DNA of 64,000 bases, taken from contig QCKK01000006.1 in the NCBI GenBank assembly GCA_003215415.1, positions 1-64,000 of the forward strand. Reading direction: 5' to 3'. The first letter of the stretch is position 1. Every line of letters starts with the position of its first letter. The stretch is from Prochlorococcus sp. AG-409-N21 (GTDB lineage: Bacteria; Cyanobacteriota; Cyanobacteriia; PCC-6307; Cyanobiaceae). The notes under the pieces are model-generated. The model made no database searches and had not been told where the DNA came from. It worked only from the letters and a program-made list of their open reading frames with translations. Below, one piece after another: positions 1-32,017 of the stretch. The position numbers and the translations under genes are program-made.

Positions 1-40
1 TGCTGCGGCAATGAGGGCAATTGATCAAATAAATCGTTAA
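1..40 (+). CDS. csoS1D: Carboxysome tandem-BMC shell protein CsoS1D, C-terminal end only (partial)
   Basis: Reading from base 2, the left edge encodes AAAMRAIDQINR followed by a stop at 38-40. This matches the C-terminal end of marine CsoS1D as I remember it (a tail of the form AAAAIRAIDQI). CsoS1D is the tandem-domain shell protein that forms stacked pseudohexameric trimers with a gated central pore. It lies just upstream of rdgB and csoS1 in Prochlorococcus, which is the position here. Its stop overlaps the end of the convergent rdgB by 4 bases. Only 12 residues are visible, so the call rests on tail similarity and synteny. Confidence 0.75.
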   Translation, partial: AAAMRAIDQINR

Positions 41-624
41 TCAGAGATTCCAAGATAATTTCGCAGGAATGGAGCTAAAGCTCTAGCGGCCTTGCCCCTG
101 CTGCCTATCTTTGAGAGTTGTTGTTGGGTTAGTTCGCCATATGTGCAGTTGGCTTCTTTAACCCAAAAAAGAGATTCGAACTCGCCTCCTGAATATGCTG
201 GTTTGGATAGAATTTCTCCCCAGCAGATACCTTCGGCTTCTTTTAAAAGTTTCCCTTCTCCATCGCATAGAACCATAACGCTTATGAAACGAGCACTTCT
301 ATAAGGGTTCTCTTTTAGTGCTTTTAGGACTTTGTTGATTTTTGCCTCATTGTTTGCTGCGAATCTTGCGGAATAAATTCCAGGCGCCCCATTTAGAGAG
401 TCAATTTCCAAGCCAGAGTCATCAGCAATTGTTAGATGCCCTGTCATTTTTGAGGCAGCTTCTGCTTTCAAAATGGCGTTTTCTAAGTAATTAGTGCCGG
501 TTTCTTCTACTTCTAATGAGTCGGGTTGTCGCTGAACACTTAAAGGTAAAGGTCCCAGCATCGCTTCTATCTCAGATACTTTTCTAGGGTTCCCACTTGC
601 AATGGTTAGAAGTGGCTTTTCCAA
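37..624 (-). CDS. rdgB: dITP/XTP pyrophosphatase (RdgB/HAM1 family)
   Basis: This 195-residue protein hydrolyses non-canonical purine triphosphates (dITP, XTP) to monophosphates, keeping them out of DNA and RNA. The N-terminal TIASGNPRKVSEI corresponds to the family SxNxxK nucleotide-binding segment, IADDSGLEIDSLNGAPGIYSAR is the central signature, and SRGKAARAL near the C-terminus is the usual substrate loop. Length is typical for the family. The start is a TTG (MEKPLLTIASGN). The gene sits on the opposite strand between csoS1D and csoS1, an arrangement known in Prochlorococcus; there is no evident functional link to the carboxysome. Confidence 0.93.
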   Translation of the reverse strand: MEKPLLTIASGNPRKVSEIEAMLGPLPLSVQRQPDSLEVEETGTNYLENAILKAEAASKMTGHLTIADDSGLEIDSLNGAPGIYSARFAANNEAKINKVLKALKENPYRSARFISVMVLCDGEGKLLKEAEGICWGEILSKPAYSGGEFESLFWVKEANCTYGELTQQQLSKIGSRGKAARALAPFLRNYLGISD

Positions 625-715
625 AGATTTAAATTGATCTAATTAACCCTAATATCTGGGGTGAGAGTATTTGCTAATCACAAAGAAATTTTATTGAGAC
701 AGGATCGGTTGAACA

Positions 716-759
716 TTCCTCCCCCAGACAATGACTAGGGACCTGTCTCTCTGGAGGAA
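716..759 (+). promoter_or_regulatory. Imperfect stem-loop upstream of csoS1
   Basis: TTCCTCC (716-722) pairs with GGAGGAA (753-759). After a small internal loop, AGACA (726-730) pairs with TGTCT (744-748), closing a 13-nt loop. It is not followed by a T-run, so it does not look like an intrinsic terminator. It may be a leader RNA element or an operator. The pairing is seen; the role is inferred. Confidence 0.45.
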
Positions 760-847
760 AATACATTCATTACAGACCTATCGCAAGCAAATGTCCTGAG
801 TGGCTAACCAATTAACCCATAGTCGTTTTAAACAGTCACAGGAAGGG

Positions 848-866
848 TGATAAGCCTTGCTTATCA
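848..866 (+). promoter_or_regulatory. Perfect 8-bp inverted repeat upstream of csoS1
   Basis: TGATAAGC and GCTTATCA form a perfect 8-bp stem over a CTT loop, 108 bases before the csoS1 start. It could be a dyad operator for a DNA-binding regulator or a hairpin in the 5' UTR. No T-run follows. Confidence 0.45.
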
Positions 867-974
867 ATGTCAGTAAAGACAGTGATCGGCATTTTTGTCT
901 AAATCACTTGACGATCAATTGGTTGAAAGGGCATTGTCCTGCATGAACATTCCACCCCTTTATTCAGGTAGGCA

Positions 975-1286
975 ATGGCTAACGAAACTATGGGAATCGC
1001 TCTCGGCATGATCGAGACCCGCGGCCTTGTACCCGCGATTGAAGCGGCTGACGCAATGACCAAGGCTGCCGAAGTGCGCCTAATTGGTCGTGAATTTGTA
1101 GGCGGCGGCTACGTAACAGTATTGGTTCGCGGCGAAACTGGAGCTGTTAATGCTGCTGTTCGTGCTGGTGCTGATGCATGTGAGCGTGTAGGTGATGGGC
1201 TTGTTGCAGCACACATCATTGCTCGCCCTCATCGCGAAGTTGAGCCTGCTCTTGGTAATGGCAACTTCTTAGGTCAAAAGGATTGA
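975..1286 (+). CDS. csoS1: Major carboxysome shell hexamer protein CsoS1
   Basis: This 103-residue single-BMC-domain protein forms the hexamers that tile the facets of the alpha-carboxysome. The BMC fold is read from GIALGMIETRGLVPAIEAADAM at the N-terminus, the AAEVRL strand and the pore-region GREFVGGGYVTVLVRGE. It is about 90% identical over the domain to csoS1E in this window, with roughly eight substitutions. Codon use is strikingly richer in C/G-ending codons than in csoS1E, consistent with very high expression. It is the first gene of the RuBisCO/carboxysome operon, 70 nt before rbcL. Confidence 0.97.
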   Translation: MANETMGIALGMIETRGLVPAIEAADAMTKAAEVRLIGREFVGGGYVTVLVRGETGAVNAAVRAGADACERVGDGLVAAHIIARPHREVEPALGNGNFLGQKD

Positions 1287-3303: not shown

Positions 3304-5673
3304 ATGGCAAAACAATCAAGTCGAGAACTAGCACTTGAGCGCCGCAAGGCTCTTAGTGAATCAGGGAAGAAGTCCGCTTCTGCAGGTGGATCAGGAGATA
3401 GTCGAGTCAGGACATCTGCTGATGCACGTGTTACAAGAACAAATGCATCTTTTACACAAACCAAAGCCATTAATTCTTCGTCTAACGAGAATTCTTCTAA
3501 TAAATCTTTAGTCTCTTCAGCACCTGCTTCTCACAGGCACGTCAAGAAAAATGTAAGTCGACCAAGTAGAGATTTGGTCCTTGCACGTCGTGAGGCTCTT
3601 TCTAGAAGAGGAAAATCTGCAGATACAAGTTCTGATCGCACACGTATAGATGTTGAACGGGGTATTTCTACTTCAGACAGTTCAAAAGAAATAATCAAAA
3701 ATAAAACCAATCACTCTGCGGATGAAAAAAGCTCTAGTAAATCATCTGCCTCGTCGGTTTCTTTCAATACTTCTGCTGCAGTTTCTAAACTGAATTCTAG
3801 AAGTAGTGATAGACGTTCAGTAACAAAAAGAAGAGCCATACAAAATACTAGTCGAGCATTAGTCCTTGCACGTCGTGAAGCTCAATCAAAACATGGTAAG
3901 TCTGCTGGTAAGCAGCCTACCTCTGCTGCTTCAGTTGCTCGCCAAGGAGATCCCGATTTGAGTAGTCGTGAATTAGCACAGCGAGTACGTGAACTTAGAA
4001 GCAAATCTGGTGCTACTGGCAAACAAAGATCTGGCGCCTCACGGCCTTGTGGTCCTAATCGAAATGGTTCAAAGCAGGGCCTTGCAGCAGATGCTCATTG
4101 GAAGGTTGGATTAAGTGAAACTAGTTCTGGTCAAGTTGTAACTGGTACCCAGGCGAATAGATCTTCTAAAACCACTGGTAATGAAGCCAGTACATGTAGA
4201 TCAATTACTGGTACTCAATATTTAGGCTCCGAAGCGTTTGAGACCTTTTGTCAATCCCCTTCTATACCAAGTCAACCTCCAAAGGTTGGAATTACCAGTA
4301 CCACCCATGGCAACAAAGTTACGGGAAATGAGGTTGGTCGTTCTGAAAAAGTTACAGGTGATGAGCCTGGTACTTGTAAGGCTTTAACTGGCACTGAATA
4401 TATTTCAGCTAATCAAGCCAGTGAGTATTGCGGAGGTGTTCATCCATCACCTCGAAAAGTTGGTCAGAGCTTGACTCTAGACGGTAGAAAAGTAAGTGGT
4501 GTTATGGTTGGTCGTTCTTCAAAAGTTACTGGAGATGAGGCTGGCTCTAGTAAAGAACTTACGGGAGATCAATATTTAGGTACTGATCCTCTACCTGAAG
4601 GTAGACCAGCAGAAAAGGTTGGCTCATTTAATACCCTACGTGGATCAGGTATCACTGGAACTAATGTTGGTCGTAAAGATACTGTGACTGGAAATGAACC
4701 AGGAAGTTGCAAACGGGTAACAGGAGATGAGTATGTCGGGACAGAACAATATCAATCGTTTTGTGGCGGCAGACCAGACCCTGAGGCAGCAAAAGTTGGC
4801 TTAAGTCTTACAAATAAATCACTACGAGTAAGTGGAACACTGACTGGTAGGTCAGATCTTGTTACTGGAGACGAGCCTGGAACATGTAAGGCTGTTACCG
4901 GGACTCCTTATGCGGGCCTTGAACAAGCTGGTCAAAGGTGTGATGGAAGGTCAGTAGATGAAATACAACAGAGGACTCCAAAAAGATTGGCAACTCCTGG
5001 AGCTCGTATGACGGGGCAACAGCCTGGTGTTGGCGGTGTCATGACTGGAGCAGATAAAGGAGCTTGTGAACCATTGACAGGTACTCCATATGTTGGAGGA
5101 GATCAGTTTGAGAAAGCATGTGGTTTCAATTCTTCTTCTATAAAATCCACAAATCAAGATCCTTTTGATTCAGCAATTGGAACTAAGTTCAGTGTTCAAT
5201 CTCCAGCCAGAGCTGCTCAAGTAATCAAAGAAGATAAATCAGGTGTTACTGGTTCCAGCTATGAGAATGGTTCGAATATCACAGGACCTTTTGATATGGC
5301 TAAAAATAAAGTAACCGGAACAGAACAATTTCGTTTTGATACTAAGCATAGGAATTTAAAATCTGATCGAATCGACGAATTGTCAAACGTAGAAACTTCA
5401 TCTAGGCAAACTTCTCGCATTACTGGTGAAGGACAATCTGCTGGCTTAAATATTACTGGAGATGATTGGGCTCGTGGAGAAAGGGTTACTGGGACTGAAG
5501 GCGTTTCAGCGCGTAGACGTAATCCAACTCGTCCTGGACCCATTAGTGCTATGCCTCCTTCACAACAAAAACGAAATGAAGAGATCTCTTCACCTGACTT
5601 TCTTATAACTGGCTCTAGTGGCAATACTCGTGAAGGTCAATTAGTTACTTTCTCGGGCGGGGCACGAGGTTAA
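3304..5673 (+). CDS. csoS2: Carboxysome scaffold/assembly protein CsoS2
   Basis: This 789-residue, largely disordered protein links RuBisCO to the shell and is essential for alpha-carboxysome assembly. Four N-repeats of the SRELALERRKAL type sit near residues 5, 88, 183 and 221; these basic helices bind RuBisCO in the family. Middle repeats, each with a KVG start and paired V/I-TG motifs, begin near residues 267, 327, 385, 438 and 497, with a sixth degenerate one near 560-610. The C-terminal region from about 611 has further ITG/VTG motifs and ends in ITGSSGNTREGQLVTFSGG, the conserved shell-anchoring peptide. The third middle repeat has lost both of its usual cysteines. No frameshift heptamer like that of Halothiobacillus was recognised. 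Confidence 0.97.
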   Translation: MAKQSSRELALERRKALSESGKKSASAGGSGDSRVRTSADARVTRTNASFTQTKAINSSSNENSSNKSLVSSAPASHRHVKKNVSRPSRDLVLARREALSRRGKSADTSSDRTRIDVERGISTSDSSKEIIKNKTNHSADEKSSSKSSASSVSFNTSAAVSKLNSRSSDRRSVTKRRAIQNTSRALVLARREAQSKHGKSAGKQPTSAASVARQGDPDLSSRELAQRVRELRSKSGATGKQRSGASRPCGPNRNGSKQGLAADAHWKVGLSETSSGQVVTGTQANRSSKTTGNEASTCRSITGTQYLGSEAFETFCQSPSIPSQPPKVGITSTTHGNKVTGNEVGRSEKVTGDEPGTCKALTGTEYISANQASEYCGGVHPSPRKVGQSLTLDGRKVSGVMVGRSSKVTGDEAGSSKELTGDQYLGTDPLPEGRPAEKVGSFNTLRGSGITGTNVGRKDTVTGNEPGSCKRVTGDEYVGTEQYQSFCGGRPDPEAAKVGLSLTNKSLRVSGTLTGRSDLVTGDEPGTCKAVTGTPYAGLEQAGQRCDGRSVDEIQQRTPKRLATPGARMTGQQPGVGGVMTGADKGACEPLTGTPYVGGDQFEKACGFNSSSIKSTNQDPFDSAIGTKFSVQSPARAAQVIKEDKSGVTGSSYENGSNITGPFDMAKNKVTGTEQFRFDTKHRNLKSDRIDELSNVETSSRQTSRITGEGQSAGLNITGDDWARGERVTGTEGVSARRRNPTRPGPISAMPPSQQKRNEEISSPDFLITGSSGNTREGQLVTFSGGARG

Positions 5674-21772: not shown

Positions 21773-21881
21773 ATACCAGTTCCGTGGATTTAATTTTCTT
21801 TTGACAAAGAACTAATTTCTCTCTCGATTTTTGTCGGGGACTCAGTTCTTCTGGTTAGGTGCTATCTCTTGGATTGATCTA

Positions 21882-21967
21882 TGGGAGCAGGGGGACTTGA
21901 ACCCCCACAGTCTTTTACGACCTACGGATTTTAAGTCCGCTGCGTCTACCAATTCCGCCATGCTCCC
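21882..21967 (-). tRNA. trnL: tRNA-Leu (anticodon UAA)
   Basis: On the minus strand an 86-nt cloverleaf reads 5'-GGGAGCATGGCGGAATTGGT and ends TGCTCCC plus discriminator A. The 7-bp acceptor stem GGGAGCA/TGCTCCC is perfect. The anticodon loop is in GGACTTAAAATCC, giving UAA. A long variable arm and a GGGGGTTCAAGTCCCCC T-arm follow, as expected for a class II leucine tRNA. CCA is not encoded. There is no group I intron in the anticodon loop, unlike the trnL-UAA of many other cyanobacteria. Confidence 0.97.
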
Positions 21968-22057
21968 TTATTGGGTTGACCAAGTTCCATAATTACATCT
22001 TAGATTCATGGAAGTACAGCATCTCACGCCCCTCTTCTTAAGACTCTTCACAACCAA

Positions 22058-22282
22058 ATGATGAACGATACTTTTTTGCTTTTAGGGACTTATGCCTCTT
22101 TAGGGTTCCTTTATCTAATTGTGGTTCCATTGTCCTTGTATTTTTGGATGAATCGGAGGTGGAACATTATGGGCAAGATTGAACGGTTGGGAATTTATGG
22201 ACTTGTCTTCCTGTTCTTCCCTGGTCTTATATTGTTTGCACCCTTTCTGAATCTTCGCCTTAATGGTCAAGGAGATATTTGA
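22058..22282 (+). CDS. ndhL: NAD(P)H-quinone oxidoreductase subunit L
   Basis: This 74-residue, two-helix membrane protein is a cyanobacteria/chloroplast-specific subunit of the thylakoid NDH-1 complex, used in cyclic electron flow and respiration. Helix one is [20 protein letters not shown] and helix two [19 protein letters not shown]. It starts at either of two consecutive ATGs. DUF3007 follows after 3 nt and trpA after that, a gene order conserved in cyanobacteria. Confidence 0.93.
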
Positions 22283-22285
22283 AAA

Positions 22286-31371: not shown

Positions 31372-31619
31372 TTTGCTCTTAATACAGCCAAATTAATCTT
31401 ATTCAATGTATCTAATCCTATTGTTGAAAAAACCGCATTATTTCTGTACGGTATTCTCGGTAATGTTCGGTAAGCACTATAACTAAACATGAATAACTTT
31501 TTCTGTTCCTTTCTCGATTCAAATACTCCTTAGAGTAGAAGGAGAGGTTCTTTGTTTTTATATTTGGTCAAGTACAAAATTCTTCTGCCATTTTTTATAC
31601 CAAGTATTTCTAACAGTTT

Positions 31620-31838
31620 TCATAACTTCCGAATCGGATAAATCATACTTTCGTTAAACCAGGATTCAATTGATTCTGAAATAGATTCATTCTCAAAGTC
31701 TTGCTTTGAAAGATTAAAGCCATAATGCTTAGCAGTTGTAATCAGATCTTGATTTGTCTTGCATTTGCGTAGAGCATTTCTTAATGCCAAGCTATGTTCG
31801 CTAGCTTTGATGAGGCAAGTAAAATCTTCTCTTGACAT
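31620..31838 (-). CDS. Second Nif11-domain small protein
   Basis: A 72-residue protein with the Nif11-like layout: MSREDFTCLIKASEHSLALRNALRKCKTNQDLITTAKHYGFNLSKQD, an N-terminal helix and then the AKxxGFxLS segment. The tail (ESIESWFNESMIYPIRKL) has no double-Gly cleavage site and no Cys-rich core. It appears to be a stand-alone family member. No lanthipeptide synthetase or transporter gene is adjacent. It lies upstream of clpB on the same strand and downstream of the petE terminator. Confidence 0.72.
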   Translation of the reverse strand: MSREDFTCLIKASEHSLALRNALRKCKTNQDLITTAKHYGFNLSKQDFENESISESIESWFNESMIYPIRKL

Positions 31839-31916
31839 AAGGTTTCCAATTACTTTTGTGAACCAAGTTATAGGTGCTATTGAATCAATAGCAAAAGATA
31901 TCTTTTTTTACTAATG

Positions 31917-31970
31917 AAAAAGCAGTCAAAATAAGAAGTGAAATCACTGTTCTTATCTTGACTGCTTTTT
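31917..31970. terminator. Nested bidirectional terminator downstream of petE
   Basis: AAAAAGCAGTCAA (31917-31929) pairs perfectly with TTGACTGCTTTTT (31958-31970). Inside it ATAAGAA (31931-31937) pairs with TTCTTAT (31950-31956), and a GTGA/TCAC pair closes the apex. A- and T-runs at both ends make it an effective intrinsic terminator in either direction. It ends the petE operon, whose stop codon lies 48 nt away on the minus strand. Confidence 0.85.
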
Positions 31971-32017
31971 ATGTGAGACAAGCTCAGCTAATAGGTGATA
32001 GGTCTTAATTGGGGGAT

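Follow-up and report, generated by a model that had tools for sequence, protein, structure and literature searches.

A conserved minus-strand RNA between rdgB and csoS1 is predicted to pair with the 5' end of the carboxysome-RuBisCO messenger in Prochlorococcus and its relatives

The gene-free region between the divergent genes rdgB (minus strand) and csoS1 (plus strand), positions 625-974 of a 64,000-nucleotide stretch of Prochlorococcus sp. AG-409-N21 DNA (the window), carries a structured RNA on its minus strand, and a near-invariant segment of this RNA is complementary to the inferred 5' end of the csoS1 messenger. From the comparative evidence we consider it likely (probability about 0.7) that the RNA is a trans-pairing antisense regulator of the csoS1-rbcL mRNA, either as a small RNA or derived from the rdgB leader, and that its effect is probably inhibitory. 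The features of the region are collected in Table 1.

Table 1. Features of the rdgB-csoS1 region, in window coordinates.
Feature	Position	Strand	Evidence or remark
rdgB/Ham1 (XTP/dITP pyrophosphatase)	37-624	-	PF01725, E 2.8e-48; divergent neighbour, downstream of the structured RNA
Structured RNA	about 690-750	-	Inferred 5' end ~750; covariation, G-U/A-C asymmetry, covariance-model matches
Stem 1 (closing), 3' arm CCTGTCTC	696-703	-	Same evidence as 5' arm
Near-invariant antisense segment GGAAUGUUC	711-719	-	Two DNA copies identical in 89-90/90 distinct loci per position
Stem-loop 2 (CCCUAG...CUGGGG), loop CAUUG	722-740	-	Helix 2: 6/7 pairs doubly changed
Stem 1 (closing), 5' arm GAGACAGG	742-749	-	Helix 1: 8/8 pairs doubly changed; 89.7% of cells paired
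RNA promoter -10, TATTTT	758-763	-	TANNNT 6-10 nt before the stem in 85/87 RNAs; shuffled 11.5
RNA promoter -35, TTGCGA	781-786	-	TTG 16-19 nt upstream of -10 in 64/87 RNAs; shuffled 0.7
Candidate LysR-type (RbcR/CbbR-like) operator, ATAAG-N5-CTTAT	850-864		Kept in 133/133 distinct loci
csoS1 promoter -35, TTGACG	908-913	+	TTGAC(G/T) in 133/133
csoS1 promoter -10, CATTGT	932-937	+	Nearly all NANNNT; 18 nt after -35, 7 nt before G945
Short csoS1 mRNA leader, inferred +1 = G945	945-974	+	Promoter spacing; identity to the RNA copy begins at +1
GAACATTCCACCCC, predicted pairing site of the RNA at the leader start	945-958	+	
csoS1, first gene of the carboxysome/RuBisCO operon	975-1286	+	BMC domain PF00936

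In the operon csoS1 is followed by rbcL, rbcS, csoS2 and csoSCA (carboxysomal carbonic anhydrase). Since rdgB and csoS1 flank the region on opposite strands, it is a divergent promoter region and not simply an upstream leader. An earlier reading of the DNA from its letters (the sequence-only reading) described it as the longest gene-free stretch of the window. This is effectively true, as the larger gaps given by a simple open reading frame screen, at 31372-32017 and 21773-22285, hold a 72-aa ORF and a tRNA. The 72-aa ORF (31620-31838, minus strand), located in the largest of the ORF-free gaps, resembles a Nif11-type leader peptide on inspection by eye. RbcL of the window was 100% identical to that of Prochlorococcus AG-409-P03 and AG-363-K07, the nearest named loci. 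When 400 genomes of the family were searched with the DNA, 309 gave a match, many over most of 690-1000. Orthologous upstream regions were taken by the position of csoS1 and aligned, with further loci added later. Operators and promoters were compared in 133 distinct orthologous sequences (about 130 loci), while covariation was assessed in 77 diverse sequences aligned without structure.

Comparison between these loci established an RNA structure of 15 pairs, 14 of which showed double changes. The conserved stem is given for the region as GAGACAGG (696-703) with CCTGTCTC (742-749). Compensatory changes in orthologous regions, which the sequence-only reading had proposed to look for, were found in this minus-strand RNA, with 104 doubly changed cells compared to 26.7 ± 4.3 in shuffled alignments and none of 500 shuffles being as good. 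Pairing was maintained in 87.4% of the cells compared to 77.5% after shuffling. The covariation score was 0.345 against 0.177 for shuffled alignments, and reached at most 0.144 when the partner was slid by one column. RNAalifold run on a plain MAFFT alignment recovered the outer five pairs only, because the stems of GC-rich Synechococcus were misaligned, and the named structure with a covariance model was used in its place.

One-sided changes within the pairs identify the strand. In the structure-blind alignment 92 of them left a G-U on the minus strand and 30 an A-C, the latter being the plus-strand G-U count. The model-fitted alignment, which leans towards the strand of the model, gave 93 and 21, respectively. 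The excess of G-U on the minus strand, seen as A-C on the plus strand, shows that the RNA is the minus strand.

The covariance model found the RNA in 71 of 121 genomes, representing 43 of 59 genera, and nearly all of the genomes with a match have a single copy. A second, weak match (25.9 bits) was observed at locus L197, about 3677-3737 (G055:C1:579076-579136), away from rdgB and csoS1. It carries GGTTGAACATTCCA and may be a paralogous RNA or a chance match. Rfam gave no relevant match in the region at gathering or relaxed thresholds, and no named RNA for the region was found in Rfam or the literature examined, though one may be annotated in the Prochlorococcus primary transcriptome or among marine Synechococcus sRNAs. 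A blastn search gave no match in phages, a 14-mer scan of viral contigs was at about chance level among the matches listed, and the six covariance-model matches examined in viral contigs were all located inside open reading frames, so that no viral mimic was found.

Judged by its conserved sequence the RNA has a promoter of its own and is transcribed away from csoS1; in 58 of the 87 RNAs the promoter spacer is 17 nt. The RNA combines three properties of a trans-acting small RNA, namely covarying structure, an own promoter (sequence evidence) and a conserved segment complementary to the 5' region of a target. A defined 3' end was not found, as terminator-like sites were present between the RNA and rdgB in just 7 of 78 loci, and the RNA may for this reason simply be the rdgB leader. 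In that case it would form the beginning of the rdgB transcript and act in cis on rdgB, with pairing to the abundant csoS1 mRNA serving to regulate rdgB or to tie it to carbon fixation. The promoter is directed at rdgB, the stem ends ~45-75 nt before the rdgB start, and rdgB adjoins the RNA in almost all RNA-bearing loci, even where sbtA has been inserted. Taken alone, however, an rdgB leader leaves the complementarity to the csoS1 5' end unexplained, and we know of no functional link between rdgB and the carboxysome. We regard this explanation as unlikely, though it is compatible with an antisense regulator of csoS1, since a free RNA could be processed from the rdgB leader.

On the opposite strand, the distance from TTGAC to GAAC was 37 nt in 130 of 131 loci. 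This rigid spacing of -35, -10 and GAAC points to a sigma-70-type csoS1 promoter from which transcription would begin at G945, so that the leader is only ~30 nt long. Upstream of the promoter lies a perfect 8-bp dyad with a 3-nt loop (848-855/859-866), which the sequence-only reading had correctly described. Across the 133 orthologues the dyad core ATNAG-N5-CTNAT was kept (strict in 131 loci, with one mismatch in 2), central and outer positions were free, the middle position varied one-sidedly and no compensatory changes were found in the arms. This is the pattern of a DNA operator and not of an RNA hairpin. A review (PMC13249358, citing Bolay et al. 2022) places the sites of activation by cyanobacterial RbcR, ATTA(G/A)-N5-(C/T)TAAT, ~90 nt upstream of the start. 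With its centre 87-89 nt upstream of the inferred +1, this T-N11-A dyad is best taken for an RbcR-type operator, located outside the transcribed RNA. The candidate site shares with RbcR/CbbR sites the ATAAG/ATTAG-N5-CTTAT/CTAAT-type dyad and the near-90-nt position, but differs in that the third base is mostly A and that the operon is an alpha-carboxysome operon. In the assembly containing the window, which is 65% complete, one LysR-type regulator was found, and its match to the NCBIfam CbbR model was below cut-off.

Two further observations concern such sites. In L053 and L054, sponge-associated Synechococcus-type loci, the right arm of the operator is CTAAT, as in the published RbcR consensus; their leader is GAACATTCCCCCC, and neither the RNA nor rdgB was seen nearby. 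A perfect ATAAG-N5-CTTAT was also present in the same genome as the window (L201, site 1501) ~150 bp upstream of an ORF that by eye encodes a plant-type ferredoxin, a possible second target of the LysR-type regulator. Sites were also seen in L199 and L202.

The sequence-only reading placed the control of the carboxysome operon in this region, and the csoS1 promoter and predicted operator do lie within it. It also took the 350 nt for a structured plus-strand leader and considered the inverted repeats to be RNA structures or operators. A transcript start downstream of 870, which it named as counting against this, is what the analysis predicts. Inverted repeats exist, and as stated neither has a T-run; one proved to be an RNA structure and the other a candidate operator, but the RNA structure is not that of a csoS1 leader. 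The imperfect hairpin of the sequence-only reading had been mis-paired, as TTCCTCC/GGAGGAA lacks conservation and AGACA at 726-730 is not the pairing partner of TGTCT. In a cis-acting leader or riboswitch of csoS1 the structure would follow the transcription start on the sense strand, whereas the structure found is on the minus strand and the predicted start, G945, follows a promoter at 908-937. Folded as plus-strand RNA the 350 nt were no more stable than shuffles (z -0.75, 21/100). With the G-U/A-C asymmetry and the dyad also against it, a long leader of the csoS1 operon can hardly be upheld.

The antisense segment GGAAUGUUC has its reverse complement, GAACATTCC, where the csoS1 mRNA is inferred to begin, and there the counterpart facing it in the leader is GAACAUUCC. 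The two copies agree at each of positions +1 to +9 in 89-90 of 90 loci, and mostly disagree from the base before +1 upstream. Identity thus stops exactly at the inferred +1, as predicted for base-pairing with a transcript that starts at G945. Past +9, most of the differences still allow a G-U pair, to which base composition could contribute. The duplex energy was -26.9 kcal/mol for cognate partners, -24.6 for non-cognate partners and -11.4 for shuffled leaders. The tree-corrected co-change of the two GAACATTCC copies was in the right direction and, with too few independent pairs, not significant. Altogether, this conserved complementarity suggests that the RNA probably controls the csoS1 messenger through base-pairing.

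The two GAACATTCC copies could instead be DNA sites for one protein that represses at the csoS1 start and upstream, the RNA complementarity being incidental. The spacing of the copies is indeed steady, mostly 231-236 bp, in compact genomes. In many genera, however, an intervening sbtA gene (PF05982) puts 1.6-2.5 kb between RNA and target. In Cyanobium-type genomes, where it occupies the space from rdgB to csoS1, the RNA is still next to rdgB, its stem has covaried and the core of the csoS1 leader is unchanged. That RNA and target are both kept across this gap argues against a local DNA repeat as well as against any csoS1 leader structure. The inserted gene, a bicarbonate transporter gene, is found between rdgB and the csoS1 promoter at L036:2044-3108, with homologues in L180-L196 (Cyanobium-type and freshwater Synechococcus), and thus adjoins the gene for the predicted antisense RNA. 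Several lineages lack the RNA; remnants are present in some (L130, L155), and L155 has also lost the -10. Most RNA-less lineages retain GAACATTCC, while the CCACCCC part that follows drifts in some. The RNA is therefore dispensable in some lineages, and a further function, separate from the RNA, is probable for the leader core. Retention of the leader copy in several such lineages would suit a protein site; the position of the upstream copy within a covarying RNA stem and the end of similarity exactly at the inferred transcription start would not, and we find such a pair of protein sites very improbable.

For an antisense RNA, a second contact with csoS1 was also considered. The CAUUG loop of stem 2 is complementary to the csoS1 start-codon region by duplex prediction, and in dimer folding it pairs with the ribosome-binding site and AUG (window dimer -38.4, monomers -21.2 and -5.9). 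Over 95 distinct pairs the energy of the start-region contact was -13.9 compared to -9.9 for shuffled segments (mean z -1.6). In high-light strains the start region is changed to GTAG(A/G)CAATG, and their RNAs carry UGUCUAC (z -3.5); these RNAs gave -15.2 kcal/mol on their own start region, and other RNAs -6.9 to -9.7. In other clades the own start region was not always the best match. The predicted contact is thus mixed across clades, and we consider it suggestive only.

We propose the following mechanism. The minus strand from ~750 to 690 encodes the structured RNA, transcribed from its own promoter away from csoS1. The closing stem of the RNA encloses the second stem-loop together with UGGAAUGUUCAACC, a segment that is either single-stranded or folded into a mini-hairpin and that would pair with the first 9-14 nt (GAACAUUCCACCCC) of the csoS1-rbcL-carboxysome mRNA, starting at G945 under an RbcR-type activator site, and the loop of stem 2 could also cover the ribosome-binding site and start codon. 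When abundant, the RNA would most likely inhibit csoS1 translation or mRNA accumulation. Entry of the ribosome would be hindered by pairing over +1 to ~+14, and possibly at the start codon, and the effect that we favour is repression of csoS1 translation; alternatively, the RNA may protect the 5' end of the csoS1 mRNA. It could act as a free small RNA or as the 5' part of the rdgB mRNA. Comparison between loci shows the structure and its strand, the two promoters, the operator pattern and the conserved complementarity, whereas a separate small RNA, its pairing in cells, the start-codon contact and the direction of regulation are the predicted part of this scheme. The furthest-reaching version of the proposal, in which a hitherto undescribed family of sRNAs, dating back to the ancestor of Prochlorococcus, marine Synechococcus and Cyanobium, clamps the carboxysome-RuBisCO mRNA at its first nucleotides and start codon, as a post-transcriptional brake on what is the main operon for carbon fixation in the most abundant phototrophs, seems to us possible, if slightly short of an even chance.

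Computational screening has touched this region before. Cluster 87 of Axmann et al. 2005 (PMC1242208), untested there (NT), is a 'Region upstream of the rbcLS cluster containing conserved promoter' represented by two sequences in an alignment of length 336, with Z -4.24 in one orientation and -3.64 in the other. The description fits 625-974, but the signal was attributed to the promoter and the table gives no strand, structure, target or distribution. Among the Prochlorococcus sRNAs Yfr1-Yfr29, Yfr10 pulls down csoS1/csoS2 mRNA (PMC2518516, PMC6778093, PMC7368042). The RNA described here resembles the Yfr RNAs, which are small structured picocyanobacterial non-coding RNAs, some acting on carbon-fixation mRNAs, and, as in the case of Yfr28, it overlaps a neighbour's 5' UTR. 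No Rfam family matches it, and the Yfr8-Yfr21 table places no MED4 RNA beside rdgB/csoS1. RblR, from a cyanobacterium of another lineage, is reportedly a cis antisense RNA of rbcL. In Synechocystis 6803, RblR is an antisense RNA that acts on RuBisCO expression (PMC5306279). The RNA found here is likewise predicted to be antisense to a carbon-fixation message, but does not overlap its target.

These cells invest heavily in protein for carboxysomes and RuBisCO. The regulators that we found described for this synthesis are mostly transcriptional, and for alpha-carboxysome operons the present analysis provides a concrete map of the predicted RbcR site and promoter. If the antisense reading is true, a deeply conserved RNA directed at the start of that messenger would offer a direct handle on how ocean picocyanobacteria with very few regulatory proteins adjust carbon fixation.
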